64,000 nucleotides of DNA from Macrosoma leucophasiata (taxonomy: Eukaryota > Arthropoda > Insecta > Lepidoptera > Hedylidae): the NCBI GenBank assembly GCA_036365455.1, contig JAWQUS010000001.1, positions 21,927,001 through 21,991,000 on the forward strand, in the 5' to 3' direction. The position numbers were made by a program, and so were the translations under genes. The notes beneath the pieces were generated by a model, which was given only the letters and a program-made list of their open reading frames with translations, made no database searches and had not been told where the DNA came from. Position 1 is the first letter of the stretch. Every line of letters begins with the position of its first letter. Below, in pieces: positions 3,910 to 57,200 of the stretch.

Positions 3910-4529
3910 AGTCGACGCAACGCGTAACAGTTGCATACAGATCGGCTGTGATCACTGCCTCACAAACAACCCCTGGACGCGCGTACTCGAGCACAAAACT
4001 CGGGTAACAAGTTGCAACAACAACTTATGTCACTCATAGAAAGAAATTCTCTAAACAGATATCTCTCTTGGTGAAACAACGAAACTGGAGCAAATTGATT
4101 TCGAAGTTGTTTTACGTCAAACTTGTAAGCTAGCCGGATAAATTTAATAAACGTTAAGTGACACGTTTAATGTGATGGAAGATGCGTTAATAAGCGAGAG
4201 CGAGTGAGAAACCCGATCATTTATAATTACCTGCATACATTTTTACTTAGTAGTATAATATCATAGACAAAGTATAATGCTTCGTAATTGATATGACTTA
4301 TAGTGTTTGACTTGATAAATGTCGATATTTTGATTTTTTTAAAACTATTCAAACTTTTTGTTCCTATTATTTTCTAATAATTTATTGCAACCATGAAGCA
4401 TTACTGAAACGTCACAGGAGGGTTGTCTTAAGTGGCGTATTTAGGCGTGGGTGACGTGGCTTCTGCCCACGACCGGTATGGCGATGTTGACTTGTGTAAC
4501 TCATGAACCTGTTGTTCAAAAGAATTGCT
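3910..4529. other. Upstream region of the divergent minus-strand gene; no gene seen
   Basis: No coding potential recognised. This is where the 5' UTR and promoter of the acidic-exon gene would be expected. Confidence 0.4.
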
Positions 4530-4853
4530 CAGTACTATAATACAATACGGGCCACCGGCTGCGGTAGACCGGAGGGGAGTAGCTATTTGCTCTCTGTCTA
4601 AGTACAAGCCCAAGAGGGCCTATGCCTGTCGCCTAGATGTTTAAATGTGTGCCTGGAATGGTTTATGTATTTTGTTAAAGTCAAGGTGTGAGTTTCTTAA
4701 TAATAGACGATTTTTGTAGTGTGTGTGTGAGTGTGTGTATCACACGCTGTTCCCCCTGCAAAAAATGACAGACTGTTTTGCATCGGTAATAAACGCTATG
4801 GCTACTCCCCTCCGGTCCACCGCGGCCGGTGGGCCGATTTACTCTATGGTCAG
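4530..4853. mobile_element. MITE family M, copy 1 (~50 bp inverted repeats)
   Basis: A non-coding element with long terminal inverted repeats (gggccaccgg...ggaggggagtag on the left; its complement ctactcccctccgg... on the right). The interior has the conserved segments caagcccaagagggcctat and gtcaaggtgtgagtttc. Copies are at 19864-20155 and 27745-28312. It sits in the putative promoter interval between the divergent genes. Confidence 0.75.
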
Positions 4854-5318
4854 TGAGTTAAATGAACTCCTCACATCTATATATTTTAAATTAGTGCACA
4901 CACACCATTGTGCGTTGTAAATAAAATAAAAAACCTTGATTATTCCCACATTTTCTGGCAAAATAAAATTAAAAATGCAAATATTCTAATTAAAAAAACA
5001 TAAATGGTCTGTGAAATCAGTTAACAAACGATAATTTTACGTGATAACGACATGAAAAAACATGCGTCACGAGTCAAATGCCTGGATCGATCGTGAACGA
5101 GACACATTTCCATGCGTGTTGTCGGCGTTCATCGATTTATAAGACGTTTTCACGTCAAAAGTATATTGTAGATTGTACTTCCAAGACAAAATCATTTTGC
5201 TGTTGATGAATAACCATTACAATTTAATGGTGCATATATTTACCTGTACAATTTTTCGAAGTGAAAGCTTCTAAGGCGTTGTGATTTGAAAGTCGATGAA
5301 ACGAAAAATCGACAGTAA

Positions 5319-5372
5319 TAAAAAAAGATCCGGACGACTTGAGAACCTCCTCCTTTTTTCGAAGTCAGTTAA
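5319..5372. repeat. Short dispersed repeat (aaagatccggacga... type)
   Basis: About 54 bp with agatccggacga, gagaacctcctcc and ttcgaagtcagtt. Nearly the same sequence is at 43109-43163, inside a SINE remnant. Class unknown. Confidence 0.6.
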
Positions 5373-5613
5373 AAAGAGATAGACTCATAAATTCACAAGA
5401 TTTAACGTGGGAGATAATGAGATAAGAAGCATTATATAGTGTCTCTAATGAAAATGTTTGAAGGTTTCACTTCTTCCACGTGTGAACTGAACGGAATTGT
5501 ACACGTGTTTTTTTTTTACTTTGCCACTGATATAATATAATTATATCGATTAGTTTTACTCGCAATCTCTAGTCCTCATAGAAAAAAAACAAAAATTGTC
5601 TATTATTATTATT

Positions 5614-5637
5614 TGACGTCAAGTAGGCGGACGTCAT
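5614..5637. promoter_or_regulatory. Two CRE/ATF-like sites
   Basis: A perfect palindromic TGACGTCA at 5614-5621 and a second GACGTCAT at 5630-5637, about 230-250 bp upstream of the SH3BP5 start codon. TGACGTCA is the known CREB/ATF site; function here is inferred only from position. Confidence 0.35.
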
Positions 5638-5862
5638 CTTGTATGAAATATTCTTTGATTATTTTTTAGTAAATTAAACAATCCTAGTGTAACAGCGTCT
5701 GCGTTTCTAACTTTAAAATTAGCTTATGAAATGACAAGTTTAGTGGTGTATGTTTGATTGGACATATAATTAATTAAATGAGTGGCGTGAGGGCGACGCT
5801 TTGCTATTGTGGCGGTGATGTAATTTAGGCGATTGGGTGGCTTCCCAGACGTAGGCAGTACA

Positions 5863-5931
5863 ATGGAAGAATCCTCTTTTACTATCCCGGCCGATGACAA
5901 TGGTGACACTGAGCTCGACCCTAGAATACAG
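5863..5931 (+). CDS. SH3BP5: SH3BP5 exon 1
   Basis: ATG at 5863; 23 codons ending ELDPRIQ, then the donor GTCAGT. The ELDPRIQ end matches the conserved start of the SH3BP5 helical core, which fixes both the frame and the family. Without splicing, the frame runs only four codons into the intron to a TGA at 5941. Confidence 0.93.
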
Positions 5932-8900
5932 GTCAGTGCGTGACAATATAATGTATTGAGTAACTGTATTGCCTTTTATTAGCAAAGATGAGTGTCAACT
6001 TCGTAGATTATTTCGCCAACGAGCACAATGGATACGATATTTTGTACCAAAACATGAAATACGGACTGATAGCTAGCAAAGAACTCTCGGAGTATCTCAG
6101 GGAGCGATCGAATATCGAAGAGTCCAATTCGAAATTGCTCGCTAAGCTAGCCAAACAAGCAAATAGCAACTGCGCCCAGGGCACTTTTGCTCCTTTCTGG
6201 GGCGTGCTCAAGTGCTCAGCTGAGAAACTCAGCAATTTACACCAACATATGTTCCAAAAAGTCAGTGAACTGGTCAAAGATGTTGCCCGTTATGCTGATG
6301 AGCTGCATAAAAAACACAAAGCGGTTAAAGACTCAGAATCTAGCACGTTAGAAGTAGTATTACTCATACAGAACACAAAACAGGCCTTGCAAAAGGCTAA
6401 AGATGTTTATACAACTAAATCAACGGAGCTCGACAAGCTACGCAAAGATAATGCCTCTGCCAAAGATATAGAAAAAGCTGAGGTCAAGCTGAAAAAGCTC
6501 CATGAGGACTATAGGCAGCTTGCGGAGAAGTACAATCTGGTAAAGCAGGACTTTGAGAAAAAAATGACCCAAACCTGTAAACACTTCCAAGACGTTGAGG
6601 AAGCTCATTTAAAACAAATGAAACAGTTTGTTAATGCTTATGCGGACATTATTCAGAACAACCATGACCTTATGGGTCAGGTCCATAGAGATTTCAAACA
6701 CCAGTGTCTAGAGTTAACCGTTGAAAAACTACTGGAGCAATTCCTCGTAGAGAAATACAATGCAATAGAAAAAGCAAATCTTATTGAACTTCCTCCTACA
6801 TTACCAAAACCGAGCTCAGCCAACAATTCTATATCGGAAGCTGATCAAATCTCTACAGTCTCGAATGGCTCACATAAGCCTACAACAATGAAAGCAGCTA
6901 AAAAAGAACCATCTTTTGCAACTAAGACCTCAAGAAGAACTACCTCGCTTTTGAATTTATTTACACCCAACTTTCAGAGCAAAGATGAACCCAGTGGAAG
7001 TACAGAAGGTGCTGCTCCTTGCTCAGCACCATCTAGCCCGAGTGGAACACCAGCTACACCGGTAGCACCTGATAAAGATGATAATATGGGTCGCACAAAT
7101 CTAAGAGAATCAAAATGGTTTCTTCGTAGTAGAAGAACTAAAAGTAAACCAAAAAAATCAAAGAAAAAAAAAGATGAGATATCTGAAAACTCAAATGCAG
7201 GGGATAAATCTGATTTGGAAGAGAAAGAAGAAGAAGTACCTTCTAAAGATGACTTGATGAATTCTCCAGAAGTTGACGATGAAGGTTTTTGCATTAGACC
7301 TAAAGATGAAAAAGGGAGTGTGTACTCGTCTACAGACTCAGATTCTGAGGAAGAGAGGGATCAGAAAATTCATGTAGAAATTAAACCGATTAGTAACGGA
7401 AGTGCACCCATGTCAGCCAGTGTGGATGAGCTCAGGGCAACTGTAGAAAATATCTCTTTGGGTAAATACAAAATAGGCACTAATCGGCGCGGCTCTAATG
7501 CAAACACCAGCAAAGGGAGTAGTGATCGACCTATGGATAGTAGTGACCGACCATTCCTCATAGATCTTTTCCCCACCGCCAGCAACCCCGCCTCGCCACA
7601 TGGAAATATTTCAAATCCCTATGCTCCTCTGCAGGCAAATCAGTCAAATTTACTCGAAAGTCCCACTCCGGTATCGACAGCAGAAGTAGGCGACCTATTT
7701 TCGGAAGTTGGTGAAATGAGCCAATCCAATTTCCGTACTTCTACACCGACGATATCGACCATATCCTTGCCACGCCCACCGTCGAGGCGATCCGAGGGGG
7801 ACTTCCGCACCGCCGGCTCTTCCGGCTCCCGGGGACCCTCCCCTCTCACGATAGGCATGGCTGACACTATACCGTTAGCTGTCGCTTTCCACGAGATAAT
7901 ACACTCGTACTTTCGTGGCACGGAAGAAACGAAATGCCAAGTCAAAATGTCCGGTGACATGATGCTTTCGTTCCCCACCGGCATAGTTGGCGTGCTCGCC
8001 AACAATCCGAATCCCGCGAAACTGTGTTTCAGATTGAAGAATATACATAGATTGGACAACGTCCTACCCAATAAACAACTTATTAGCATAAACACAATGA
8101 TGTCCACAAGAGACACCACCGTTGTCGAATTCAACATGCCCGCCCTAACTTCTCTGCTGAAGCGACAGTCGGATAAGAATCCCACGGCTCAGTATTTTAA
8201 CGTAGACATTCTTAAGTACCAGATCCGACCGAAAACTGGCGCGGCATCCTGCCCGTTCCAGTTGGTATCCTATTGGAAGTGCGAGCGCGACCACACAGAT
8301 CTAAAGGTTGACTACAAGTACAATCTTCACGCTATGAGTCCACCATCGCCGTTGCTCAACGTATCGATATGTGTGCCAATGAATGGCGCTGTAACAAATG
8401 TTATTGCAATGCCCAAGAATAGCTGGAACGCGGAAAATGAGCAAGCGCTGTGGCGCTTCACTGAGCTGTCCCAGCACTCGGAGGACAGAGGCGTGGGGTC
8501 GCTGAGGGCTCGCTTCGAGTTAGCCAAGGGCCCATCCGCGAAGTCGACCATCTCTGCCCAGTTTAACTGCGAGGGCGCGACGCTTTCCGGCATCGAATTC
8601 GAATTGATAGGCAGCGGGTACCGTTTGTCCCTCGTGAAACGCCGCTTTGTCTCGGGAAAATATATTTGTGATAGTGACGTGTACTGATCGGTCCAAATCG
8701 CTTATGAAATTCATACTTATAGATGTAAATTTTGTACGCGACGCGTAATTTTCATTATTGAATTTGGTTGAGGGTGAATGAATGTTTGGTACCTTGTAGG
8801 ACTGTTTCCTGTCCACAGTAATAAGTTACTTTTGAATCACAATATTTGTCAATTTTGATGTATAAAATATATTTAGTTATAGTTTTACTCATAACAGCAT

Positions 8901-11900
8901 TTTTATAATATAGTTATATTCACTGCATTACTAACTTATTTCTCAAAAATAGATTTTGTGCCATTATGTATGACTAATTGATAGTTATTGCGTTTTCTGA
9001 AAGGTAATCTTTACATGCAGAGTTATTTTTAAAGCACCCAGTTTCAAATGTCAGTGATATTTTCGTTGGAAGGATAGCATTGGATTTTAAACATCTACTT
9101 GAACCTAATTTTCATCTATTACCAAAAGCTTTAAATAACTATTTTGTAAAGAATTCACTATTTATCACTATCTTGTTTTTATAATCTATTAATATGTCAA
9201 ATAAGATTATCCTTTTATAATGGTTTCATTAATATGAATGAAAAAGAAGTCCCATAAAGTGTATAAATTCCTATAAAAAGTAGCAATAATTCATAAAATT
9301 ATTTCTGAGTACATGCAGTTTATGAGTTGCCTCAAATATACTCATATTCTGGTGATACCAGATTATTATTATATCTTTCAACAGAAACCATTTGATTAAA
9401 CAGTGATATTGTTCTCAATTATTTTTAGGCTTTATAAACAATTTAATTAACATATCTTATTGTAATTTACATGTAAATGAGTGTTGTTTCTGTGTCAATA
9501 TCTAATTGAATGTATTCTTAATAATTATTATTTATAATTATCCAATGTATTAGACATTAATTTACAATTTTGTTTAATTTCATACAGTTAAATTGTTAGA
9601 GAAACAGAGCCTATTATCGAGATAATAACTCAATATTAAGTAAAATACTAATTCGTTTTAATGAAAACATGTCTTAATTGAAAAAAAATGACTTCATGAC
9701 TTCATGAGATTAATTATTGGTACATAATTATCTTGTACAACTGGGTTTAGAAAAAACAAATCTAAATATTATGTGCACCATCATAGATAATTTTCTTTTA
9801 AATTCAATTCTTTCAATTACATAGATGTTATTCTGGTGTTTGATAAATTATATGTCTGTGCGGGGTTACATTTCTTTAAGTAAATATTTTATTTTGCTAT
9901 AGAAATTTGAGTTGAATAGTAGTAACACACGTCCGGATTTGGTACAGAGCAGACCGCAGATGCGGTACGCTGCGGACCAAAACTGGCCGTGTGTTGAGGA
10001 GTCCGGCGGACATAATTATTATTAATCAAGTCCGACGCTGTTCGCCCGCACGGATTTCGGAATTCGGTCCGCCGTACCGAATCCGGACGTGTGTTACTCC
10101 AAGAATGTTTGAATTATTAATTAAGGCATAAAAAGATAATGTAAATACCTAATTATTCTACAAATATTACCTAATATTCACCCACCATTTAGAATTTTGA
10201 CCATGCCTTAGTTATTGTCTATGGGACTAATTATATAATTGATAGGCCTTGATAATTCTTTATTTTGTTTAAGTTAATTATATATGAGATCTTAACTAAA
10301 TTTGTTTATTACGATAGACACTATTAAATAGTGGATTATGATGTCTGTATTATAAAATAATCGTAACTGGCAACATTACAATGGTTGCCAATTGAATATG
10401 GTTCTATCAATTAAATTGAATTTAATTGAATCTCTGAAACTAATGGAATTATATTGTTTTTTATTGTAACATTCGGTTTATGATATATCAGGTGGTAATT
10501 CCACCTGCTCAGCTATTTTTCTGTTGTTCGAAAATTGTTATTAGAGTATTTTTTCTTGTTTCGACATTTATTACAATATAGGTAGATTGTAATTTTATAA
10601 TTTTATTTTACTCAATTGTAATCTCATTTTTTGTTGTATTTTTTACTTATTCGGATCATCACTACTGTCAACTTGGCCTAAATATACCTACGTTATAGAA
10701 ACTTTACCAAATGGGAAGTGTTCATATTGTTAACAGTTAGATGTAGATCGAGACCTACCCGAGTACAACTGAACCATTCCATTACATCTATTAAAACACG
10801 TTAAGTTTTTTTTTTAATATAATAGTTATGTAGATCACTATCAAATCAAACTTGCGTTCAGTAAACCGATTGTATTGTTATTGTATTAGGCGTATTAAAT
10901 TGCAATGAATACTGAATGCGTAAAATATTTTTGTATTGTAAAATTTATCTCACTGTATAATTATAATGTAATCTTATTGTAATCGGTAATTAAATATAAT
11001 GTTTAAGAAACAAGTGTTATTTTTATTTGGTGTTAAATTCATATAATCTTGGGATGCTAAGTAAGTACAATTTGTTTAGTAGATGCTTTAGTAGGGACAG
11101 GAAACGTCCAATAAGGTACTAAGATATCGTTTATCTCGAGATATGTAGTTGCGCGGTTGTGAAATGCTTGCAGTGATATGTTTCCCGTCTCTACGTGTTG
11201 TTTGCTCTTGCCATATGTATGGGAGTATCGTGTGAGGGTGCCGTGCGATTGTCTAAAGTATTTCACGACGTTTCAGGTGGAACTGGAAAAGCTGAACGCT
11301 GCTACTGACGAGATCAACAAATTGGAACTGGAACTTGATGTGAGTTTTTTTTTCTGATAGTTTGTAAGGGCCGTCCTTAAAAAACGTCACGCTAAAATAA
11401 GCCTTTTCTGACCTTGACCCCTATTGTCACGTTGTGTCACACTATGAGTGACCCCCGCCTACAAATATTACGTCACAAAAGTGAGATCCTCCCTCCGAAT
11501 ATGACAATTTTTTTAAATTATTATTTTCTAACGCAATATTAATTTAAAATATTTTAATGAACTGCGAGCGTCACGTTGCCGTAGACCTCCCGTTCCCCCT
11601 TGTCACTTTTTGTCACGCTCAGCGAGACCCTTCCCCCCTTGTATGTGAACGTATTTTAAAAACGGTACCTAATCTAAAGCCATTGCCGTACAAAAAAATA
11701 AAATAAACATCAAGCTAGTCCCATCGTCGGTGTGAGCAACGCCTTTGAATGTTTTCAATTGCATTAAAATTATTTTCTCACGCGCTATTATTTGCTACAA
11801 CTTCTAAGATATATATTAACTAGCTAATTATATACTATAACTAATTATATACTTTTTAATTACGAGTAAGTATTATAACAATGATGTGCATAAAATGCTT

Positions 11901-14900
11901 CTAAGGAAACTAAAGTATTTAATTTCTTAAGGATACTGTAATGGTCTAAATAGCTTTCCAATTACCACATTGTAAGTGACCAATTTTTTGTTAAGTTATA
12001 TTGTGTATCGTAAGCTATCCATAAAAGATAGACAAATGCTATCGCGGACTTTTTTGTAGATCTACCAAAGGGAAAGTATTCCAACATATATTGTTTTGTT
12101 CCATCTCAAAAGGTTTAGGCAGCGTCTTCGATGAACGCTTCGATGAAAAAAAATCAAGCCGCCTGTGTGGGTTGATTTTTACGGACACCTCCAACATGAT
12201 ATACCTATTTTATTTTAAAGAAAAATGGAAAGAAAAATTTGACTTCAGGCGAGACTCGAACTCGCGGACAGGACTTCAGTAGCTCAATTGGAAGAGCGGC
12301 TGGACTAGATTCCCAGTAGGCCGCGAGTTCGAGTCTCGCCTGAAGTCAAATTTTTCTTTCCATTTTTCTTTAAAATAAAATATATTTCACAAGCATGTGT
12401 TAATGCGAAATAATATAAAAACAATGATATACCTACATCAAAACACAGAACCAACTAATAAATCTTAGAATTTACAAATGCGGCACTATTAAATTAAATA
12501 TATTATAATAGATAGGGAACAATTAAATTAAATTTATTTACTTAATTAATGTTAAATAGATGCCTATTTAGAATTACATATACTTGGGTGTTTATATTTA
12601 ATTTAAATTAAGCGAGTTTGTGATCGTCTATGATATATCATTAACCACCTAAATTTTAGCCCAAGGCCAAACATAGATATTTATTATTGAACACATACTA
12701 TGATAAAATACGAGTACCTAGAAACAAAACCAAAGCATCTGCATTTTGATCTCTGGTTTTTATGTAGATGTGTATAGGCTGCAGCCACCTACGGCCTAAA
12801 TCTTATCTACTTATAAGAGAGAAAAATAAGAGATATTTTTTTTAGGAAAATATAAAATGATACTTATTTATAGATACTACACACGTTCACAAATAAATAT
12901 TAACATGAATGTAGGTGAGAATGGGTCGGTGGAAGCACTCATGAAGACAAACATAGATTTTTTATAATTTATAATATCACATTTCATTTCAACAGTTAAT
13001 TCACAAGAGAGCTAAGAATGTCAACAAAAATGGAAAACAATGTTCCTATACCAAGTTTTTGTATCTTTCACATATCCGCTCTCGCTACACACGACCGGAT
13101 TCGGTCCGGCTAGGGTTGCCAGGCGTCCGGATAAAGCCGGACATAGTTAGGCCTTTTGACCTCGTGTCCGGTCAAAATATACGAAGACCGGCTTTTGTTA
13201 GGCTTTTTAAATTTCTTAAACGAGCGAGCGCCGAGCACAGGTGAACACTTCTATCGCGGGTGTCCGGCCTTTTTACCCAAACGTCCGGCTAATCTTGACG
13301 GTCTGTTCGGTTATTAGGTTCAGCGACCTGGCAACCCTAAGTCCGGCGGACTGAATTCGTCAACCAAAGCAGACTAGGCAGACAACGCATCGGACTTGAT
13401 TAATATCTAATAATTATGTCCGTCGGACTCCTTTACAAATATATACTATTTAATTATAGATGTTCTGAAGAAAGGCCGGGCCTATGCGTGTTTTTATGAC
13501 GTCTTTTGTGGCCACGATCGATAACCCAGGTGATCCTTTTAAAAATACATGTCATTACAAAAGGTAACGTTTCGTAGGTAACCTTGTTGTTAGAAACTCT
13601 ATAAATCTGTTTCCACTTACAGTACGAGCAAAACTTACATGCCACTGATGCCACTAAGTGAAGTTACAATTACAACACTCCACAAATATCCGAATAATGC
13701 GCTGACGCGTTCCGCGCCCGCCCCTAGACGACCCTGCACGAACCACGAGGTTGTTTTCCGGTTATCACCAACCGAGTGTCCCTCCGCGACGTCCTAAGGT
13801 TCGGACCCACAGGGGTCTCCCTTAGGCAGTTACGCTTTGTCGGCGTGACAAATATTTATGTACTGACCTAATTTCAAAACTTTCAAGACATTCAAGCTTT
13901 CTGCTAAGTGTATCAATTTCCTCTTCAATATCCTATATTTTAAACTAACGGCCCACCCCGGCTTCGCCCGCGCTGCTCCGTTCCTATTAGTCGTAGCGTG
14001 ATGATATATAGCCAATAGCCTTCCTCGATAAATGGGCTTTCTAACACTGAAAAAACTTTTCAAATCGAACCAGTAGTTCCTCAGATTAGCGCGTTGAAAC
14101 AAACAAACAAGCTCTTCAGCTGTATAATATTAGTATAGATTATTCAGCTATATGTTTGTTACTCAAGGTTTTTCTTGTGACAGCTTTAAATAATTTTTTT
14201 GCAAGCAAAAGTGGACTAATTTAGTAAAAAAAATCAGACAAATTGATATTTTTTTGAAGTCGGCTAAAAACAGATGCGCGCGCAATCTGATGCGTATCCT
14301 GTATAGCTGGCTGATATGGCGGACGTAGCGTTCGATCACGATTGCTATTTATTTCGACCGCAAATGGTACTGATAACGGTACATAATGAACGTGGTGGCA
14401 GGGACGGTGTTCGACCACAGCAGAGCATGAATTTAGGACACATGCTATTTTTCACTCATTTCATTCTGGCGCTGATTATATGCTATGGGTTGGTACCTAT
14501 TACTTTATTTTTCTATCCGTTATATGAGTATTTAATTGCTCAATTAAATTAGCGGATTCTGGCACACATCCGGATTCCAAATGAGATTAATATAAGTACC
14601 AACATACTTACATATTGAATAATAATAAATATAATAATAATGGCAACCCATTATACGTCCCACTGCTGGGCACGAGTCTCTCCCCTTTTTGGGGGGAGGT
14701 CTGGAGCTTACTCCACCACGCTGCTCCAATGCGGATTGGTGGAGGTGGGTGGGTTAGTGGCCAACCCACTGTCGGGTGTTTTCAAACCGCCCATAAGGCC
14801 TCCGACAAGGTTTAACGACTGCTATCCATCGATAGCAACCGGGACCGACGGCTTAACGTGCCCTCCGAAGCACGGAAACGCGCATTTAATTTGCCACTTG

Positions 14901-23900: not shown

Positions 23901-26900
23901 GGAGAGACATATGAGACATATGCGAATATGGGCGGTGCAACTTTCGCTCTACTCCATTCGGTTGGTGATAACCGGAATGGCATCGGCCTCGCGGGGCCGG
24001 AGATAGGGTCGGGATCAGGGGCGGGCGCGGCGCGAAACGCGTCGGCGCGTTGTATTGGCGGTTTGTGCAGTGTGGTTCTGTAAATGATTGTTCATAGCGG
24101 CGATGGCCAACGTGGTCTCATCGTCCTGATCTTTTAAGACGTGCCTTGGACGTCTCCTTTTGGCGCGATCAAAAGGAGTGTAAATCGCGGCCGCTCTGAC
24201 CAGCGGATTCGGGTGGTGACTCGCCCGATCGAAATAGCGAGCTGAAGCTCGCTTCATAAACTGCCGGATGGTAGGCAGGTTTGCGTCAATGTGCAAGTTT
24301 TTATTACGTACGTACCAAGGCGCGCCTACGGCTCTACGTAAGAATCGATTCTGCAAAGTTTGAAGCTTGCGTAATGTTGTGTTTTTCGCGTGGGCGAATA
24401 CCGGGGATGCGTAACATAGTATGGGCCTTATGCAGGACGTATAGGCACGGAGTTTGTTCCGGGCCGATAGCTTGCTCTTTTTGTTTAATAAACAATGTAA
24501 TTGGGACAACACGAATGCAGCCTTTGCGCGCGCTGCTTTTACATGTGCAGCGAAGGTCAGATGCCGATCAAGCGTCACTCCTAAGTATTTGATTTAGTCC
24601 ATCCAGGGGATGGGCTCGTCAAACATTTGGACTGGGGCTACGTTAGGTCTGGGAGCGGGGTCCCGTATAAAGAGTATGGCAGCGCTCTTGCTAGGATTTA
24701 CCTCTATACGCCAGCGGCGGAACCAAGACTCAAGGTCTTTGGCCGCCGCTTGCAGGGCTTTCCTTATGATCTCTGGCTTTCTGCCAGAGACGTAAATAGC
24801 AGTGTCGTCAGAGTACATTGCCACCTGAACGCCGTGGCGGACAGGGATATCGCTAGTGTATAGCGTGAACAGGAGGAGGGAGAGTACGGGTCCTTGATGT
24901 CATCTTTTATGGTGGAAAGGGGACATTGTTGACATAAAAGTAGCTTTATAGTAGTAACACACGTCCGGATTCGGTACGGCGGACCGAATCCACCGACCAA
25001 ATCCGCACGAGTGGACCGCATCGCACTTGATTTTTTTCTTTAATTTCTAATAATTATGTCCGCCGGACTCCTCTACACACGACCAGATTTGGTTCGGAGC
25101 GTACCAAATCAGGACGCGTGTTACTATTAGTACCTACTTACCGTAAAATTAAGAATTGATTGTCAATTACTGATGATTATTTTTTTAAATAATTTTTGGG
25201 AATTTTTCTTTTTAGGTGAAATGTCGAAGGTTGATTTAAGGGTGTCAGGCAGTTAGGCACCAATTTAAAATACTCGTTTTCGCATGCATAGAGTTACTCT
25301 CATGGATAGCGAAAAAATATGCGACGCGCATATTCTTGATGACGGAGAAATCTGTCATATTATTATATTTCTGTATTGTTCAGTTTATTAAAACGGATTT
25401 ATACTAGTTCACCTATCTAGAAATGTTCCAAGGTGCATGCGATGACGAGGTCGTCGCGGGCGCAGCTAGATGAGGTCAATTAGTGTAACACCCGGCTCCT
25501 GTGCCACTTGGCACTGGTTACGTAATGTTTGTCGTACTTACTTATAAAGAAATTATATCATCACGATTTACTGAAATGTTAGTCCGAACGATCCAACCGT
25601 TATTTTTATCAATACAGTTATAACTCGGATATTTCCTAATGAAACTAATTGCAAAAGTTTTTTTTTTAATTTTACGAGTATTTCTGACAGCTAAATATAA
25701 CTCCAGGAGTAATGATTTGAGACAACGAAAGAATTAAAAAGAGATGATCTTTAATTTATCACTTTCTTTGCGGTGATTTAAAATAAATCATTTATTAGAA
25801 ATAGAAATAGAAATAGAAATAGAAAATATTTTTATTTCGAATAGATCTTTACAGATACTTTCAAAACGTCAATAAATCATAAACTACCTAGAGCGAATAA
25901 CCATTACATATAGTAAAGAAAAATCATATATTAATAGTAAATTAAAAATTAAAATTTAAACTATTTGGTTAAAACATAATAATCATAAAATTTTTCAATT
26001 CCTTCAATGATAATAAATGAAGAAAAAGAAAAACTTATTCGTCAAGATCAATGTTATTCACTTAGCAGAGTTCCAAGTGCAGTCACTACTGAGAAGAACT
26101 CCGCTACCCAACAAACTCAGTAAGAGCTCTTTTAAATGAAAGCTTAAATCTAGTACAGATTATCGTGAAAAATCAAACAATGTCAACGTCCATAGCATAG
26201 ATGCAAATAAACTGCTATCTACTAAATGTGATGTAGCCCCTGCAAACCAGTACAGACCAGTCCCCACCAACAGCACCCGTTCACGAGTATGACGCATGTG
26301 ACAGCCATTGCCCTCCTCGACCATTTTATTAATAATAGATCTTAGGCTGGAGCGCCTGCGCTCGCCGACTGCACGGTGAAGTAGACTAGTGCAGTCTCGG
26401 AACAGACCGCCTACATGGCATGGCAAAGCATGGCATACAAGTACGTCAAAAAAACAGACAAGCATGAGTTTTGAAATCTATCTAAGTACTCGTACTTAGT
26501 TTAAATTGATGGTAAAAGACACTGCTGATGTTTTACCTCTTGCTAATGCGGTACATAAGATACATAACAATTAAGCGGTGGTTCCTTTAACCTAGAGTTG
26601 TAACACCAGTAAACATTATGGAAACTACAAATCCTGGATCATCTTACAGGAGTCCATGAAAACATTTCATCTCTTGCTGAACGAGACATCGCGGCGACTC
26701 CAAGGGTTGACCAAGAGGCTGGGCACTTGCGTGGACAAATCTCGGCCGTACCACGACGCTGTAGCTGCTGCGGCTACCGCCCGAACGGAGTGCCAACGCG
26801 CTGCCGTGCAGTTCCAGAGAGCTAGCGGTAAGTTTGAAATTGGAACACACATTGACTTAAACATGTTTCATCCAAGAAATGTCCATAGATCACATCGGTG

Positions 26901-29900
26901 CCAGATAATATGTAATAACTAATACTACGTATAGAATGGACACTTCGACGTCCCGCCCGATTTCCCTGCCTCACCCAACCTTCTCCCCTCTTATGGGCGA
27001 CGTTTGGTATTCTCTACGTGTAAATACACGTCACTTGTTGATGTCTGTGTAATAGAGACCAAATTAAGCGTTTGTATGGAATTTTGGCGGAGTTGCCGCG
27101 GTGTGTCGGTGCCGGTTCCGGTCGGTTAGGCGATACGTTTTTGGATCACAGAAAACTTCTTGAACAGAAGATATAAACGGTATTTACAGAGGCGAATCAG
27201 CTTAGCCCTTAGGAAAGCAGTAATTCTAGGCAAATTGTAAGACGAACTTTCGCCTGAGTTGTTCCTCTCGGCGCTACAAAATGGTGTTCTTCTGAAAAAA
27301 CTGACGTCACATTTCGCAGCTCTCTTGTTATTGCTTATGTTAGTAGGCGACTTTCAAGAAGGTGGCTCGTCTAAAAAAGCTACCTAATTTAATCGTAAAT
27401 CGTGAATGCAATAGACAGACAGGTAGAGTTAATTTCACATTTATATCGTTAAGGATGTAGAGTGAGCTATGTCATTAATTTCGATTATGGCAGTAACATT
27501 GGCGTTCCAATCAAATAACATGTTTAGCCGTCAACAACACACCCCTTTGCCACCCAGCGTATCTTATCAGCGGTAATAAATTGGCGGCTTCCCGTGGGAA
27601 GCAGGGAGCATAGGCAGGGGAAGGCCGTGCCAAAGACGTTGAGATTTAATGTTCGCGAATATTGATTTGTACTCGTAAATATTTATGATTTGTTATGTTG
27701 TGAAAGCGGTAAATAAGCACGCAGATCACATTAATGGAGTGAATACTGCAGCCCATAGAGCAACTCGGCCCACCGGTCGCGGCGGTCCGGAGCCAGAGAA
27801 TATGTAATAACTACGTGTAGAATGGACACTTCGACGTCCCGCCCGGTTTCCCCGCTTCACCCAAGCCTCTTATGGGCGACGGTTGGTATTTTCTACGTGC
27901 TACGCACACAGGTACAATACACGTCACTGATTGATGTCTACACAGACATCATTCAGTTACGATTTGGTCTCTATTACACAATAGAGACCAAATGAAGCGT
28001 TTGTATGTAATTTTGGCGGACTGTACGCGGTGTGCCGGAGGGAGTGGCCATAGCGTTTATTATCGATGCAAAACAGTCTGTCATTTTTTGCGGTGGGAAA
28101 TACATGTGACACACACACACTACAAAAGTCGTTTATTACAACGAAACTCACACCTTGACTTTAACAAAATACATAAACAATTTCCCGCACACATTTAAAT
28201 ATCTGGGCGACAGGGATAGGAACATTTGGTCTTAGTCTTTGACAGAGGGAAAGCCTGCATATGGCTACTCCCCTCCGGTCCGCCGCGACCGGTGGCCCGT
28301 GTTGCTCTATGACTGCAGCCTATTGCCATAGAGATAAAAAAGTGTGCCTGTCAGCTCCGATGTACGACGGGTGTTCACTCGGTGTACGTAAGGAGATCGC
28401 TAGTGTGCGGCCGAGTGAAACACGTCCGCTCGATCGCAGCGCTAGCGGGGGAATCGCGCGTAACGCCTCAACTTTCATGATGCACTTGATTTTACTCCTC
28501 ATAAAAGTTTCGTACCGAGCCTTATAACTAGTATTGTTTCTTAAGGAGTGAACCCCAAAAAACAATGTCCGCATAACTCAGAACCACCTCACCAAACTAT
28601 ACTCTTAATTAAAAAACACACTCAAATCGCTCCACTAGCTTGTAAGTTCTAGGGTCTAGTCTAGTTCTAGTTTACTGGTGGTAGAACTCCAGCGACGGAG
28701 CTCGCGGGCGTAGGCACCACCGCATTACCTATTTTATATTACATTATACTTGCCGCTAAATGGTAGTGTTCAACACTATCGTGTTCCGGTCAGGTGGTAA
28801 TGTACGGCCCTGTAATTTCCGGCACAGAGGCATAACACCTAATGCCTCAAGAGTGGCAGCGCATCTGCATTTTGACCTCTGGTCATTGTGTAAGTGTCTA
28901 TAGGCTGCAGTCATCACCTAACATCAATGTGAACTGCATGCTTGTTTGTGACTTTTATTACATAAAAAAAAAGTTGTACCGATACCAATACAAAAGTTTA
29001 GATTATAACGAAAATTACAATCAAATGACAACGACATGTTTAGCTGCCAATAACATATATCTCTTGGCCACCCAGCGTATCTTATCAGCGGGAACAAATT
29101 GCCGGCTTCCCGTGGGGGAATGGGCAGGGGAAGGCTGAGCCAAGGACGTTGAGATTTAATGTTCGCGAATATGGGTTTGCGGTTTGCCATATATTTATGG
29201 ATGGATTTATCGCAGATTCATAAAATAAAAATATGAAGTTGTACTAAATTTTTTTTTCGCAATAACACGTGCGAGTGAACTTTAGAAATTAAAAAAAAAA
29301 CGGAAAGAAAAATTTGACATCGAACCTGCGACCTCAGGATAACCAGTCCAGCCGCTTTACCACTAAGCTACCAAAGTCTCACACCTATGCATCAAATTTT
29401 GCTTTCCCCTTTTTGATTTTTAACAGATTAAGGGAACAGCGACATCTTAACGATATTGTATAAATAAACTGCAAAGTCTTTCATATCTGTTGTATAGCTA
29501 TGTATCAATTAGTTACTCGTATCAATGGATGTCGTTCACGGACCCTAAATCGGTTAAAAATCAAAAAGGGAAAGCAAAATTTGACGCATCGTTGTGGGAC
29601 TTCGGTAGCTTAGTGGTAAAGCGGCTGGACTGGTTATCCTGAGGTCGCAGGTTCGATTCCTGCCCGAAGTCAAATTTTTACTTCCGTTTTTTCTTTAATT
29701 TCGAAAATATGAAGGTTTATCCATATTTGCCGTCCGTATCCAGCCTTGCATTAAATAACCACCACCTACTAACTAATACTAATTAAGTTAATTCGCATGC
29801 TTGAAACATAGACTTGTAGGACTAATTGATGACCATTTCACACCCTTCAGCAGATACCTATATTACTCTACTTTTATGGGTTTTAGACTTGCTATCAAGG

Positions 29901-32900: not shown

Positions 32901-35900
32901 ACAGCTTACTGGTGGAAGAGTTAAAGTATAGGAACTTGAGGGCGTAGGCACCACCGCATTACCTAATTTATCTGCCGCCAAATGGTAGTGTTCAGCACTA
33001 TCGTCTTGTATAGCCCCGTAATAATTATAGCAGAAACGTAACAACTTAGATCCCGGGAGCGGCAACGCATCTGCATTTTGTCAGCTGGTTTTTGTGTAGA
33101 TGTCTAAATAAATAAATAAATAAATAATCTTTATTTCTTTAACAAAATGTTTTATGACACAAATAGGCTGGAGTCCCCTTTTAAGCATTGTAAAATGCCT
33201 GTGCCAGAGGGCTCCGCTCTTCTAATGTACAATTCTTTCGTTAGATTTATTTTTTTACTTACAATAGGTGCCTACCAGTGATAGAATAAGTTCTATCGAA
33301 GAAATATCCGGTCCGTCACGTAAGTGACTTATTTGTATGATGTTAAAGTCCAATTACTATAGGCTACACAGGTGAGCTGCGGGCTTGTTTGCTACCTTCC
33401 TTACATAAAAAAAATCTAGAAGTAGATAGCCTATAAGCACCGTTGAGGCAGTATGTAATTAATTTGAATTATTCCAGAGTTACACGCAGCCGCCAAGGAG
33501 ACGGTGACGTTGGCTGAGCAGCGCTTCGTGAGCAAGCAGGACGAGTGGCAGTTCGACAACAACTGGCAGGAGGTCCTCAATCATGCCATCATCAAGGTAC
33601 CCTTTTTGGAGTTTACTCTTTAAGAAACGATTTGAATTATAAGTCCCCGTACGGATATTTGAAATTCTAAGCGCGCATGGCCCCGCGGCTTTTGCAGATC
33701 GTAAGCGATCTACTCGGTTAAGTATTACGGGCGCGGTCGGGTGTGTGATGGGTTACCGCTAGTGGCAAATTAAAAATGCGCGTTTCCGTGTTTCGGAGGC
33801 CACGTTAAGCCGTCGATCCCGGTTGCTATCGATAGACAGTGGTCGTTAAACCTTGTCGGAGGCCTTATGGGCGATTTTTTTCGATTGGGACGATTCAAGT
33901 GTTGCCAATACGAGTATTATTATACCTACTTATTTATGTAAAGATTATATCTCACAACACATTGAGTTTGGCACAAGTCAAATTCTAGTTGTAAGACATA
34001 CCAATTCTATCGTTCCATTGAGAAAACCAGAATTTAAACTAAAACAATACTAGATAATTTATATGATATTTTTAAAGAAAAATGGAAAGAAAAATTTGAC
34101 TTCAGGCGAGGCTCGAACTCGCGACCTACTGGGAATCTAGTCCAGCCGCTCTTCCGCTCTTCCAATTGAGCTACTGAAGCCCTGCCCGATTTGTCAAATC
34201 TTTCCTTCACATCTATTGCATTGCTTTATGGTAGCAGTAGCGCCATCTATTACCAACTATGCTAGTTAGGCAACCGATATAATAGACTTTTCAGTTTATT
34301 GAATATCGTAAAGAAGTCGCTTTTACCCTTAATAATTGTTTTTATATTATTTCGCATTAACACATGCTTGTGAAATATATTTTATTTTTAAAGAAAAATG
34401 GAAAGAAAAATTTGACTTCAGGCGAGGCTCGAACTCGCGACCTACTGGGAATCTAGTCCAGCCGCTCTTCCAATTGAGCTACTAATCTTTCCTTCACATC
34501 TATTGCATTACCATAAAGCAATGCAATAGATGTGAAGGAAAGATTTGACAAATCGGGCAGGGCTTCAGTAGCTCAATTGGAAGAGCGGAAGAGCGGCTGG
34601 ACTAGATTCCCAGTAGGTCGCGAGTTCGAGCCTCGCCTGAAGTCAAATTTTTCTTTCCATTTTTCTTTAAAAATAAAATATATTTCACAAGCATGTGTTA
34701 ATGCGAAATAATATAAAAACAATTTATATGATTTAATATTTACAATAGGTGGGTACGTATTGTCCCTACCTATTCACTTACTACTTACTGACTTGTGAGA
34801 GCATATTACGTAACGAACATTTTGTGGTTTGCTCTCAGCTCATTAATTCGCTTTCTGGGCAAAGTGCCAGTAATAAATGTTATGTAATTTTTGGAAAGCC
34901 TAGCGATCTTTCAACGAATAGGTACGAGTAGGTATATTAATTCTGCGAGCCGCAACATCAGTGATAGTATGCAGTTTCTTAACGACTTCTTTTTGTTTAC
35001 GGTTTTTTTATTTCCAGAAGCAAACTAGAACTGAACTGACATTCATGATAAACGAATAATTTAGTCTATAAATATCTATAATATATAAACAAGAGAATTT
35101 AATGTAAATGCATTAAAACTTCTTTATTTCAATGAGTGTAGCTCGCCAAAATCTAAGATTATAGGTACCTACTATACTTCCTTTATATTTTTTTGCAAGT
35201 ATGTAATAGGTAATAATATTGTGGTTATGGGTAAAGACAAGAAAGAAAGATACCCATTAAAATTTTGTAATGGTTGACATTAAATTACAATGTATAAGAA
35301 TATTGATAAAGACGAAAGGTTACGTAAGATACATGCAAAGAAATACGATTTCATTTGTTAACGACTTCATGTTTTTTTTTTAATGTAATGAAAGTACAAT
35401 ACAAGCTTGCAGTTAATTAGAGCTCCAGTGACAGAGCTCGTGGGCGTAGGCACCACCGCATTACCTAATATACTTGCCGCTAAATGGTAGTGTTCAGCAC
35501 TATCGTGTTCCGGTCAGGTGGTAATGTACGGCCCTGTAATTCCCGGCACAGAGGCATATCACCTTAGGCCTCAGGAGTGGTAACGCAATTGCATTTTGAC
35601 CTTGGTCTCTGTGTGGGTGTCTATAGGCTGCAGTCATCACTTAACATCAATGTGAACTGCATGCTTGTTTGCCACTTTCATTACATAAAAAAACCAGCTG
35701 AAAGGGCTTGTTATGATTAATGTCTTAAAGCAAGGAACGATCACTTAACTTATAACATTTTTTATTCATTCATTAACCTCTTGAGCTGCAGTAAATTATG
35801 ACAATTGATTTCATATTGTTCGTGGACGATATCGTCCACGCGTAGCTCATTACACACCTATTAATTACACGTACACCTATTAATTATATCTTGAAAATGT

Positions 35901-37662: not shown

Positions 37663-37912
37663 TTGTTTTATATTATTTCGCATTAACACATGCTTGTGTT
37701 ATATCGGTTGCCTAACTAGCATAGTTGGCAATAGATGGCGCTGCTGCTACCATAAAGCAATGCAACAAATGTGAAGGAAAGATTTGACAAATCGGGCAGG
37801 ACTTCAGTAGCTCAATAGGAAGAGCGGCTGGACTAGATTCCCAGTAGGCCGCGAGTTCGAGTCTGGCCTGAAGTCAAATTTTTCTTTCCATTTTTCTTTA
37901 AATAAAAATATA
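37663..37912 (+). mobile_element. tRNA-like repeat family T, plus-strand copy
   Basis: Leader ttatattatttcgcattaac and gcctaactagcatagttggc; tRNA-like unit 37800-37875 (acttcagtagctcaatagg to ctggcctgaagtc); tail ttctttccatttttctt. No head-to-head partner here. Confidence 0.75.
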
Positions 37913-49990: not shown

Positions 49991-50402
49991 ATTTTTAAAG
50001 AAAAATGGAAAGAAAAATTTGACTTCAGGCGAGACTCGACACTTGTGAAATATATTTCACAAGCATGTGTTAATGCGAAATATTATAAAACAATTATTAA
50101 GGGTAAAAGCGACTTCTTTACGACATTCAATAAACTGCAAAGTCTATTATATCGGTTGCCTAACTAGCATAGTTGGCAATAGATGGCGCTACTGCTACCA
50201 TAAAGCAATGCAATAAAAATGTGAAGGAAAGATTTGACAAATCGAGCAGGACTTCAGTAGCTCAATTGGAAGAGCGGCTGGACTAGATTCCCAGTAGGCC
50301 GCGAGTTCGAGTCTCGCCTGAAATCAAATTTTTCTTTCCATTTTTCTTTAAAAATAAAATATATTTCACAAGCATGTGTTAATGCGAAATAATATAAAAC
50401 AA
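49991..50402. mobile_element. tRNA-like repeat family T, long palindromic copy
   Basis: A short minus-strand arm (49996-50040) cut just after gcgagactcga, then the tail word cttgtgaaatatatttcacaag (itself a palindrome). It continues with the leader (gcgacttctttacgacattc, gcctaactagcatagttgg) and a full plus-strand tRNA-like unit at 50249-50325. Confidence 0.72.
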
Positions 50403-51227: not shown

Positions 51228-54200
51228 CTGAAAACGAAAAAAAATGAGTGTCATATATTCTCTATCTATCATGTTTTGCTAAAATATAATCAATCTTTCA
51301 TAACACCTTAGGCCTCAGAGGTGGTAAAGCATCTGCATTTTGATCTCTGGTCTTTGTGTGGGTGTCTATAGGCTGCAGTCATCACTTAACATCAATTGTG
51401 AACTGCATGCTTGTTTGCCACTTTCAATACATAAAAAAATATATTTGTCATACCCAATCTGAACAGACTAAATATGAGAAACAGATCGCAAACGATATTA
51501 AAAAAAAATCTATTGTTCTTGTTGTTCTCGTACGGTGTCAGTGTACGTGCCTCAGGAAACGGCCAATCGCGAGCCCATTCTAGCTTGCACACATTTACAC
51601 ACGACAGGCATACACACACATACACATGGACATCTTTACCATAATCAAGGATCAACCGTCAAAGATAGACTTTTTTTTTGCGTTATTGGCAATCGCTATT
51701 ACGCATATTGCCAGTGTCAAGTAAAACGATATTTTCATATAATTCAACATAAGCAGCGTAAAATTAAAGTCAGTTGGTCAATTATCAGTCAGTCAGTCAG
51801 AGTCACAGTCAGTAATTCGAGTAAAGCGATGGCTACTTTACCAGAATATTTACAATGAAGTTTTGGAGGCAAAATGAAAAGCCATGTTTTCGCCCTGTTA
51901 TTCTATTTCACTATACACGGGCACTGTAATAAACCTATATCAAACAAAATGCCATCAACTTTATTCTATATAACTCAAAAATACACCAAGAATATGAAAT
52001 AAAATAAGAGCACTACACGTCTCTTTCAAGGTTCCCAAAACTCCCCAAAAGAGATAGACTTGTGTTCATTCTTCTAAGACATGGAGGATGATTAACAGAA
52101 TATATAAAAGAGTATCACATTATGAAACCCACCTTTCCATCGCTCCTCCCCAGTACAGAGTTGAGAACGAAATCGGTCGGCGAAAGCGCGTCGACCACGC
52201 TCACCACCTCGCCTTTCACATCCGCGCACAACTCCAAAATGGCTTCCCTCAACAACCGAGCCAAATCCTCCCCCCTCGAATAACCACCTTGGTACATCTC
52301 CACCAAATGTTTGTCCAGCGACCAGAGACCGTATAAAGAGAAGAGTTTATATAGAACTGGCTGCAACTCTTTCTCTTTTTTCTCTATGGACTGCAAACTG
52401 TAGATTATGGCTAGATACTCCGCGTACACCTGCGTCAAAGTCTGCCATCTGTACACCTGCGATTTGTTTTTGGCTTGCACTTTGGTTAAACCCTTTGTGA
52501 TTTCAGATTCATTCTTCTCGTAGGTGTGTTTCAAGAGCCAACATATCAGCCATTTGTATGTTGATATTATGACTGAAACAAAAAAATATTATAAAAAAAC
52601 CCTAATATTTAACTTTTAATAAATTTTTAAATTGTCTTGTTGGATTTGTGAACTAGCTGTTCTTAGGCATCAAGTCCGGTGAATTACAGACCCCCTCCCC
52701 CCCGAGGGTTTCCGCCTTGTCGTGGCGGGGGGACTCAGTACCCGGTGGTCATCCTCACACCGGCAAACCCAAGAGGAACCCAGAGAGGGGGCGGCGTTTG
52801 GCGTGGCTCAGTCCGCCACTCGCTGCCGTGAAGAGGAGACGGCTGGCGAGGAGGTGTACGGGTATTTCGTTGGCCCTGCACCCTATCCCCAGCCGCCTAA
52901 CGGTGGTCCCGCCGTCAGATGGGGACGTGTTGGGGCCGTGGGGGGCGAGGGAACCAAAATGTCTTCGACGCTCCCCCAGGGCCGGACTGTGTGGCCTTGG
53001 ACCCCTCCACCTGCGCGTCTTGGGACGCCTGGTGTTGTGAGTGGTCGGGGCAGGGACCTTCGGGCGACGGACTAGGGAAAGTTCATCGCCCGACTGGAGA
53101 GGTCCCGGGCTGGTTGGCGTGCAGGTGTTCCGCACGCCACTAGTAGTGGTTGGAGCCGAAAGGCTCCGAGGAGGGCTCGACAGCGAGCAGCCGGTGGGGT
53201 CGCGGATGTGTGCGATAGCGTTCCCGTGACCCCGCCACTGATGGCGGACGAGTCGGAACACCCAGGGGTTTTTAGTGGGTAGACGGATGTCCTTTCCCGG
53301 AGTCCCACATAACCCACCCCTCCCCCCAAGGGTGGGTATGCGTAACGCAGTTTCCCATAATAAAAAAAAAACTGAATTACAGACCAGACGGTGTATTCTG
53401 TAACTCGGTGACCATCAATTTGTAAGCCACTTTGCTCTTATAGTCACAGAGTTGCAGAATATGCCTGCCGGTGGTAGAAGAGTGACGTTTATCTGGTTGA
53501 GAGGATTTATATTCATATCGCAAGATAATGAAAATAGGTCCGATTAATATCAATAGGCTCCGCATAACTCACAAATATTGATTAATTATGGGTATACGTG
53601 GATATAACACAGTTCTGACTACGAGTTTTTGTTTATTATAGTTTCTCTATCTCTATCGAAATTCTAGTAATTATCACTGGATCGTACATAACGAACTAGT
53701 CAAACATACGCCGCCCGCATTGATTAAAGCAAGACTGCGAAGCCATTAATTCGCGTTGTAATGACAATACAAACTATACTATAGTAGATGAGCGTATTTA
53801 AAAGTGCAGAGACACTGGAGAGAGAATTAAAAGACTTCAAAATAATCACTCACATTCAGGTGTTTTCAGCTCCTTAGTGTTCGTGCAGTGGAAACTCCTC
53901 TCCATGATCGTCTTGAACTCCTTCAGAAAGGCGACAGTGCCGAGAGGGGAGTCAACGGTGTTCCCGGACACGGCGGCTTCGTACTGACGCAGCAGCCAGT
54001 TGCCGGTCTGCTGCGAGAGCACGCTGTTGTCGCCCTCGTACGTCACTGTGGGCTCGTGGTTGCTCCTGATGTCGCCTAGGTTAGCGCACTGATGGCCAAG
54101 AAAAAAAAGATAATGAATTAGCATAAGTTGGGGTATTACAGTACTGTGCTAAACACAGTATATCCGCACAGTGTACAAGGTGTAGCCGGAAAGGTCCAAC

Positions 54201-57200
54201 AAAATTGAGAGGTAATCATCTATATCAAGTTTCAATTCATTTGACGTTAACAATAACAATGAAATCACAACTCTTTTTTTTTTTCATACAAAGGTAAAAA
54301 ATATTTATGTGTCATTTTATTTGACAACCCTAACAATAACAAGTCGCCAATGAAAACGCTCAGCATTTCACATACACATACCGTGCGTGGTAATTGTGAG
54401 GCGAACGGTACGCGTGTGTGAATCAAAGTTTGACTCGGAATAACTGATGATATTACATCAATTATTTCGAGTCAAACTTTGATTAACACACGCGTACCGT
54501 AGAGAAAGAAAAAGATAAAGAGCTCGGGAGATGAAGTCAACATCAGTATAGGCATGGACTGTTGAAGTATTATTGGACCTTTCCGGCTACACCTTGTATA
54601 TACGGGGAAGTATAGTCAAGGAGTTTTGGCGGGAACCTTGAAAGATGCGTGTGGTGCTCTTATTTTATTTCATTTTCTTGGTGTATTTTTGAGGTGTATA
54701 TTAAATAAAGTTGGTCGCATTTTGTTTGACATAGGTTTATTACAGTGCCCGTGTATAGTGAAATAGAATAACAGTGCGAAAACACGACCTTTCAGGTTGC
54801 CTCCAAAACTTCATTGTAAATGTTCTGGTAAAGTAGCTATCGCTTTACTTGAATTACTGACTGTGACTCTGACTGACTGACTGATAAATTGACTGACTGA
54901 CTCTGACTCATACGCTGCTTATTACGAATACGAAATATCGTTTTACTCGACACTGGCAATATGCGTAATAGCGATGCCATAACAATAAAAAAAAAGTATA
55001 GTCAACGCAGCATAGTGGATATGGTAGACGGTCACCTTGAGGTACCCGTGCCCCCCGCAGGCCTCCCGGCAGCGCTGCGCGGCGTGCAGCACGGTCCACG
55101 TGAGCAGCGGCTTGCTGCACGACACCATCGCGTGGATCTCTGAAACCGCCTCACTCTGTATGCCATACAACGCACACGTCAGTACATAGCACATCCTGCT
55201 CTCGGATTTGGTGGGAGTGGAATGGGGTCTACACGCCAAAAATGTCCATATAGCCCGATGGCTTTATTAGAAAATAATATTTTTAAATAGTTTACAGTAC
55301 CCCCTAAATATTTAACGTATAAGCAAAACAAATTAAAGGTTTAACTGACTCAGTAGCGTAGTGGTAGCAGGCCAGGCCACTACTACTACGCCGGGGGTCC
55401 TGGGTTCGATTCCTGGGTCGAGAACTATCAGAGATAACGGTTTAAAATCCTTTATCTCTGGTTCTATTGGGATTATACCATTTTCTGGAAGTTTCCCAGT
55501 ACCTCGGAGTTTGGTAATGTGCCCGGAGATGGCAACACGTTCGCCACCTGTTACATGGGCCAAAACGTAACCGGCGAGTCGTGGATGTTTGCATGTATGT
55601 TTGAATGCATGGCTTTACCTCTGCCTACCCCTTCGGGGATTACAGGCGTGAAGTAACTATTTTTTTTAATTAAAGGGCACCAGTGCCAATGCATCTTCAT
55701 TGAAATCTGTAATTTTTGCAATCCATGAGAACGCGTGCTTGTTGGCGACTATGATGACATAGAAATAAGTAAGAATAATAGAGATGTTGATTTTTTTTTA
55801 ATTATAACTAGAAAATAGTGTAGGATAACTAAATAAATTTTGTCTCGAAAACGTTATCTATACATATAAAAATCAATTGCTGTTCGTTAGTCTCGCTAAA
55901 ACTCGAGAACGGTTGGACCGATTTGGCTTATTTTGATTTTGAATTCTTTTTTGGACGTCATTACTGCATTTCTGTAAAAACATTATTTACTAAAAAGTTG
56001 TTGTAAATCGTATAAAAAATACAAAAGTAAAATAAGTCACTAGTTCTTTTATATCACCCAATTCAATCTCGAATTTTCATCATTTGTGCATCTGTACCTC
56101 CTATATCCTATTTGAAGGTAAATATTTTCATATGATATTTTCATAAGAAGTGATTTTAAAAGTAGGAAACATTTCAAACCAAAAAGTATCATATTGGCGC
56201 ACATGCTTTTTATCAATTTGTCGCAAGACGACGTCAGACACATGTTTCACATTAATTCACAGATGAGTAGATTACACAGCGACTATTGGCGACTATTGGA
56301 GTATAGAGGCCATTATATTAGGTTGGGGAAAAAGTTTCTTCGCATTTTTTAAGATAATTCAAAACATTTTTAATATAGTTTATTTAAATTTAACTAAAGT
56401 ATGTATGTACCATTTTGTTCGATAACCTTTTGCCATCTTGTAGGTAGGGACATGATCCCATTGCTATAAAAATTTTGGGACTTCTCATCAAAATACCGCG
56501 ACAAGTGGATTTGGCAGTCCTCTCGTGATGTTAACCTAACATTGCATAAAGAATTCTGAAGAGACCAAAACAGGTGGAAATCTGAAGGTGCAAGGTCAGG
56601 ACTATACAGCGGATGCATTAACACCTCCCAGCCAAACTCTCTTAATTTTTGCTGAGTGGCTATAGATGTGTGAGGTCTAGCGTTATCATGATGAAACACC
56701 ACACCCCTTCTGTTGATCAATTCCGGCCGCTTTCTCTCAACTTCTTGCTTTAATCTCATCAGTTGTTCGCAGTTGAGTTCAGAATCGAGTGTATAGTCCT
56801 GCCTGGTGGTAATAGCTCATAATGAATAATGCCCTTCCAATCCCACTACACACACAACATCACCTTATTGCGAGTTAACCCGGGTTTCGCCACAGTCTGT
56901 GAAGCCTGACCGGCCTTTGACCACGACCTTTTCGCACGTTCTTGTCGTACGTGATCCACTTTTCATCACCAGTTATCAGCTTCTTCAAAAATGATTCGGT
57001 TTCATTACGTCGTAATAAAGAATCACAAATGAGTACACGGTTCATTAGGTTTCTTTCAGTGAGCTCGTGAGGTACCCAAATATCGAGCTTTTTTTTGTAC
57101 CCAGCTTTTTTCAAATGCACCAAAACTGTTTTGTGATCAATTCTCAGTTCTTCAGCTACGTCGTAACTACTGATATGTCGATCTTGCTCCACTTTTTCAA

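Follow-up and report, generated by a model that had tools for sequence, protein, structure and literature searches.

In the 64,000-nucleotide stretch of Macrosoma leucophasiata DNA that was analysed here (the window), an intact, intronless gene for FCHO was found inside the first intron of SH3BP5, on the same strand. FCHO acts in starting clathrin pits. The host gene encodes a Rab11 exchange factor, as described in the available parts of two papers (PMC6138693, PMC6419104). With moderate confidence, we favour a model in which a retrocopy landed in SH3BP5 intron 1, became the lepidopteran FCHO gene and uses the SH3BP5 upstream promoter region, with two-way processing and an additional start for SH3BP5 isoform X1.

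The FCHO ORF occupies positions 5988–8687 of the + strand, with its ATG at 5988, 899 codons, a stop codon at 8685–8687, and no introns. Residues 1–891 of FCHO from Epargyreus clarus (P0001) aligned to 5988–8681 in a single unbroken tblastn match. Pfam domains FCH (PF00611) and muniscin muHD (PF10291) were both detected above cut-off, and the ORF has the architecture of a muniscin, with F-BAR/FCH at the N-terminus and a mu-homology domain at the C-terminus. Its PDB matches include the F-BAR domain of FCHO2 (2v0o) and the muHD of FCHO1 (5jp2), and residues 424–518 match an FCHO2 chain of 7og1. The ORF is not a chance one, because it is 2.7 kb long and has homologues at E = 0; both chance and assembly error are ruled out by the identity to the Epargyreus protein, which is 91.8% across 891 residues.

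The SH3BP5 gene model was built by aligning a lepidopteran orthologue (P0121) to the window. It comprises six mapped coding exons with GT donors and AG acceptors, all on the + strand (exon 1, 5863–5931, MEESSFTIPADDNGDTELDPRIQ; exon 2, 11277–11339; exon 3, 26650–26827; exon 4, 33478–33596; exon 5, 35907–35990; last coding exon, 36126–37031), and encodes a protein of 472 amino acids. The ORF of the last exon (36105–37028) matches Pfam SH3BP5 (PF05276), and this exon also matches SH3BP5 in the PDB; these matches and that of the whole protein to P0121 place it in the family marked by a PF05276 coiled-coil domain across the exons. Exon 1 joins exon 2 in frame across intron 1 (5932–11276, +; donor CAG/GTCAGTG, acceptor TTTCAG/GTG), and its N-terminus recurs in 17 lepidopteran SH3BP5 records, 10 of them identical to the window and 7 with one substitution. 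Since the mapped coding exons flank the FCHO ORF, FCHO is nested in intron 1, with its whole coding region inside the intron on the same strand and 56 nt between the donor at 5932 and its ATG. An earlier note made from the letters of the window had described an intact 899-codon ORF in this position and orientation, together with the donor and the gap; the ORF, the unbroken tblastn match and the exon boundaries from the orthologue alignment bear out all of these points.

A search with the FCHO protein gave 975 matches, the best 120 of which were listed; 16 named lepidopteran taxa among these 120 have one FCHO entry each, of 890–915 residues, with no isoform labels visible. In two of these taxa, Danaus chrysippus (P0003) and Eumeta japonica (P0024), the FCHO model starts with the 23 residues that SH3BP5 exon 1 encodes, and the FCHO sequence follows. 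Because these models begin with exon 1, the exon adjoins FCHO on the same strand in both species. A junction-directed search matched 21 of 22 candidates, and exon 1 was present in only 2 of the 21, again Danaus chrysippus and Eumeta japonica; the other 19 proteins start at the FCHO start, one of them with 8 extra residues. The two fusion proteins were rejected as proof of fusion transcripts, both being gene models. As the adjacency is common to the danaine butterfly Danaus chrysippus and the bagworm moth Eumeta japonica, both members of Ditrysia, the arrangement is, on the evidence of these predicted proteins, old and predates much of Ditrysia.

The longest contig recorded for FCHO was also compared with that recorded for SH3BP5, in those species for which both tables give one. 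The two are equal to the base in five of six lepidopterans (Epargyreus, Amyelois, Pararge, Aricia and Leptidea) but not in the sixth, Bombyx mandarina; in other insects, where some contigs are scaffolds, they agree in one of four (Anabrus, with a 1.24-Gb contig) and are unequal in the remaining three, Lycorma, Gryllus longicercus and Hetaerina. Such agreement is weak evidence, because a value stands for a whole 90% cluster, of which it gives the longest contig. Equality was rejected as proof of nesting, since all that it shows is that one contig carries both genes, and Bombyx mandarina and Anabrus are cases to the contrary. Conservation among species, a feature of promoter-sharing pairs, is seen in the adjacency in the Danaus and Eumeta models, with the longest contigs as weaker support.

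An FCHO ORF that lacks introns, holds a single fixed splice form and sits in the intron of another gene is most readily explained as a processed copy. Seven pairs of predicted FCHO isoforms from Periplaneta, Zootermopsis, Anabrus and Schistocerca differ in internal length and have zero mismatches, and therefore point to introns within the ancestral FCHO coding region. The Periplaneta isoform segments are of 31, 54 and 14 residues, and all three cassettes are fixed in the window ORF, in Epargyreus and in the caddisfly Arctopsyche, with the third diverged in the window. A processed origin, as the retrogene of the earlier note would require, is supported because cockroach and termite isoform segments are fixed in one lepidopteran ORF that has no introns; FCHO here fits the description of an intronless copy of an intron-bearing gene, the outgroup introns being read from predicted isoforms and not from genome structure. 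Retroposition scars, by which a retrogene may also be recognised, were sought around FCHO as a poly(A) tract or target-site repeat, and none was found above chance (the longest shared word, of 10 nt, was reached by 32% of 300 shuffles, and the longest A run was 8). Retroposition scars fade with age. The lack of surviving scars also favours a history in which FCHO is not a retrocopy, its introns having been lost one by one and the gene moved here by DNA rearrangement, but introns are wholly absent, even where the outgroup isoforms place cassette boundaries, and the location is new, as FCHO and SH3BP5 have different longest contigs in three of four outgroups (some of them scaffolds); we consider this history very improbable. 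In a tree of the window ORF and 57 of the 120 listed FCHO proteins, Lepidoptera and Trichoptera formed one group (32 tips, support 0.999), whose stem has a length of 0.31 substitutions per site. This long stem, in a tree that includes P0030–P0033, is compatible with retroposition in the common ancestor of the two orders. The retrocopy appears to be the sole FCHO of each named lepidopteran among the 120 listed of 975 matches. DNA of relatives was sought in viral and prokaryote contigs, where 4 and 5 pattern-matching stretches, respectively, were found, none encoding a relative.

Exon 1, a possible first exon common to FCHO and SH3BP5 isoform X2, is followed by a candidate 51-nt mini-intron (5932–5982, +) that ends in a polypyrimidine-rich acceptor. 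The acceptor-like sequence, ..TTGCCTTTTATTAG followed by CAAAG and the ATG, is separated from the FCHO start codon by 5 nt. On an ad hoc scale it ranks at the 96.7th percentile of the 3442 + strand AGs in the window, which falls among the five SH3BP5 acceptors (76.6 to 99.9, the exon 2 acceptor being the lowest). The stretch preceding the ATG reads ctgtattgccttttattag, then caaag, with a TAAC motif ∼20 nt before the intron end. An alternative AG immediately before the ATG is weak (48th percentile), and use of the equivalent AG is implied by the Danaus model; the residues AAK and AAN before the ATG in two other open-leader proteins would permit the same AG/C arrangement. Because a good 3′ splice site lies 5 nt before the ATG, splicing is likelier than intron retention for FCHO mRNA, so that of the two routes previously proposed for this mRNA, retaining or trimming the start of intron 1, retention has lost ground.

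Three ATGs, at 5863, 5894 and 5900, lie in exon 1 upstream of FCHO. When exon 1 is joined at 5983, ATG 5863 opens 25 codons with a stop that overlaps the FCHO start (ATGA), and the frames from ATGs 5894 and 5900 (43 and 41 codons, respectively) extend 86 nt beyond the FCHO start. With exon 1 joined at 5988, ATG 5863 is in frame with FCHO and yields a fusion of 922 codons, the kind seen in the Danaus model; without splicing, its frame stops 47 nt before FCHO. These start codons are a real difficulty, and the main one, for a first exon common to the two genes. Because they would precede FCHO, a start inside exon 1 has to be considered, with FCHO having its own compact core promoter over exon 1 or the 56-nt gap, transcription starting downstream of the SH3BP5 ATG, an unspliced mRNA, and regulatory DNA but not the first exon in common with SH3BP5. 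Such a promoter would avoid the upstream start codons and would agree with most lepidopteran models, which begin at the FCHO ATG, but it leaves the good acceptor at 5983 without use; we regard it as a possible, if rather unlikely, arrangement. The statement in the earlier note that there is no room for a separate promoter is too strong all the same, as starts inside exon 1 or an overlapping core promoter are possible. Both the use of the acceptor at 5983 and the avoidance of the exon-1 start codons would be accounted for if FCHO mRNA came from a separate upstream non-coding exon that is spliced to 5983 past SH3BP5 exon 1, but no such exon was identified on reading 4500–5862, and this route is judged distinctly improbable.

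Downstream of FCHO, the 2490 AT-rich bases at 8688–11177 contain no AATAAA on the sense strand versus 3.9 expected (p 0.02, Markov resampling) and seven on the antisense strand versus 7.7 expected; the test was done post hoc, and counts elsewhere in the window are mostly above this expectation, so the result is a hint only. Absence of AATAAA between FCHO and exon 2 may let some polymerases reach exon 2. Six copies of ATTAAA occur between the FCHO stop and 11177, the last of which (10989–10994, +) is a candidate FCHO poly(A) signal.

Contiguous with exon 2 lies an alternative first coding segment at 11178–11276 (+), assigned by leader matches to SH3BP5 isoform X1 (MFPVSTCCLLLPYVWEYRVRVPCDCLKYFTTFQ). 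Among 77 SH3BP5 records, 17 begin with exon 1 and 13 with the X1 leader or a variant of it; a further 6 extend to the N-terminus, and 41 belong to none of these classes. Twelve of the 13 X1-type leaders match the window at 22–30 of 32–33 residues and the remaining one at 12 of 22; the leader was seen in 0 of the 6 other N-termini. To judge from these records, the X1 N-terminus is conserved in Lepidoptera, and because the leader is also open into exon 2, SH3BP5 is likely to have its own start downstream of FCHO. The claim that SH3BP5 mRNA arises by splicing over the whole FCHO gene may hold for isoform X2, but such splicing need not always occur, because of this conserved second first exon downstream of FCHO. 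The X1 N-terminus is cysteine-rich, which might affect membrane binding.

Rfam and ARAGORN returned only tRNA-like matches in the window, none of them within 5863–11339. Three tRNA-Ser(AGA)-like sequences were found by ARAGORN at 12272–12348, 37800–37876 and 50250–50326 (+), the first with flanks repeated in inverted form, perhaps as part of a tRNA-derived repeat; a tRNA-Thr(GGT)-like sequence lies at 29598–29672 (+) within SH3BP5 intron 3 (Rfam/ARAGORN). The window also contains an acyl-CoA oxidase (PF01756) coding stretch (52118–52588, −) and a mariner-like transposase fragment (HTH_48; 56878–57450, −).

In the model that we favour, a processed (reverse-transcribed) FCHO copy with one fixed splice form would have inserted just behind SH3BP5 exon 1. 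The insertion would date back to an ancestor of the ditrysian Lepidoptera or of a larger group, and the copy would now serve as the lepidopteran FCHO gene in place of its parent. FCHO transcription would be driven from the SH3BP5 upstream promoter region and start at or around exon 1; its mRNA would be spliced to the acceptor 5 nt before the ATG, or not spliced there, and polyadenylated before ∼11.0 kb. Isoform X2 would be produced by splicing across the entire FCHO gene to exon 2, and isoform X1 from the second start downstream of FCHO, with a separate promoter. Against this model stand the shortness of the 51-nt mini-intron, the exon-1 ATGs, the 19 of 21 models without exon 1, the weak AG at the ATG, the differing longest contigs of Bombyx mandarina, the agreeing ones of the outgroup Anabrus, the absence of scars above chance, and the possible presence of a parent copy among the 855 matches beyond those listed. 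Shared transcription of FCHO and SH3BP5, as proposed earlier, is plausible from the sequence; that the locus couples pit formation to Rab11 recycling can at most be inferred. A more elaborate version, which we think unlikely, would make exon 1 a three-way switch, in which joining to 5983 gives the 25-codon uORF and FCHO, joining to 5988 gives FCHO with a 23-residue SH3BP5 N-terminus ahead of the F-BAR domain, as the Danaus model predicts, and joining to 11277 gives SH3BP5. Acceptor choice would then balance pit initiation against Rab11 recycling, and the X1 start would safeguard the supply of the recycling factor while the first promoter is taken up by FCHO.

A literature search, by title and mostly outside subscription papers, on the FCHO/SH3BP5 pair, intronless or nested FCHO, lepidopteran SH3BP5, Bombyx FCHO, Bombyx retrogenes and nested genes of Lepidoptera found no report of the pair among the titles listed, and the available main text of a paper on lepidopteran retrocopies (PMC11675541) contains no FCHO, F-BAR or SH3. 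The class of same-strand nested or promoter-sharing genes is known, and FCHO/SH3BP5 is a new insect case. The comparisons below draw on the available parts of the papers cited. In the cholinergic gene locus, VAChT lies in the first intron of ChAT (PMC3053374), and the likeness drawn in the earlier note stands, since both loci have a single-exon ORF in the first intron of a host gene from the same pathway area; several promoters and alternative splicing, both of them predicted here, and long conservation are further shared traits. The genes are different ones, however, and at the FCHO locus the exon that precedes the nested ORF encodes host protein, the gap is 56 nt and shared transcription is putative. 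If the first region is shared, the locus would be an insect equivalent of ChAT/VAChT, linking an initiator of endocytosis with an activator of Rab11, and would have been kept through much of ditrysian history.

PELO is nested in intron 1 of ITGA1. ITGA1/PELO and CPNE1/RBM12 are among 24 human promoter-sharing pairs (PMC2568002), and FCHO/SH3BP5 resembles the CPNE1/RBM12 type in its unrelated coding sequences on one strand, one proposed 5′ region and conservation among species. In that type the shared exons are non-coding and backed by cDNA, whereas the candidate shared exon here carries the host start codon and is known from gene models alone. H13/Mcts2 likewise has a gene nested in a host, with nested transcription that interplays with host processing, but Mcts2, itself a retrogene (PMC3107425), differs in being imprinted and in having an intragenic CpG-island promoter of its own (PMC13309782). 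Expressed human retrocopies use resident promoters and splice sites, and some are joined to host exons (PMC2584115), as proposed here; in contrast to them, the FCHO retrocopy is apparently the sole FCHO of each named lepidopteran among the matches listed. If the model is true, a conserved trafficking gene has survived in retrocopied form, limited to a single fixed splice form and transcribed from a borrowed promoter.
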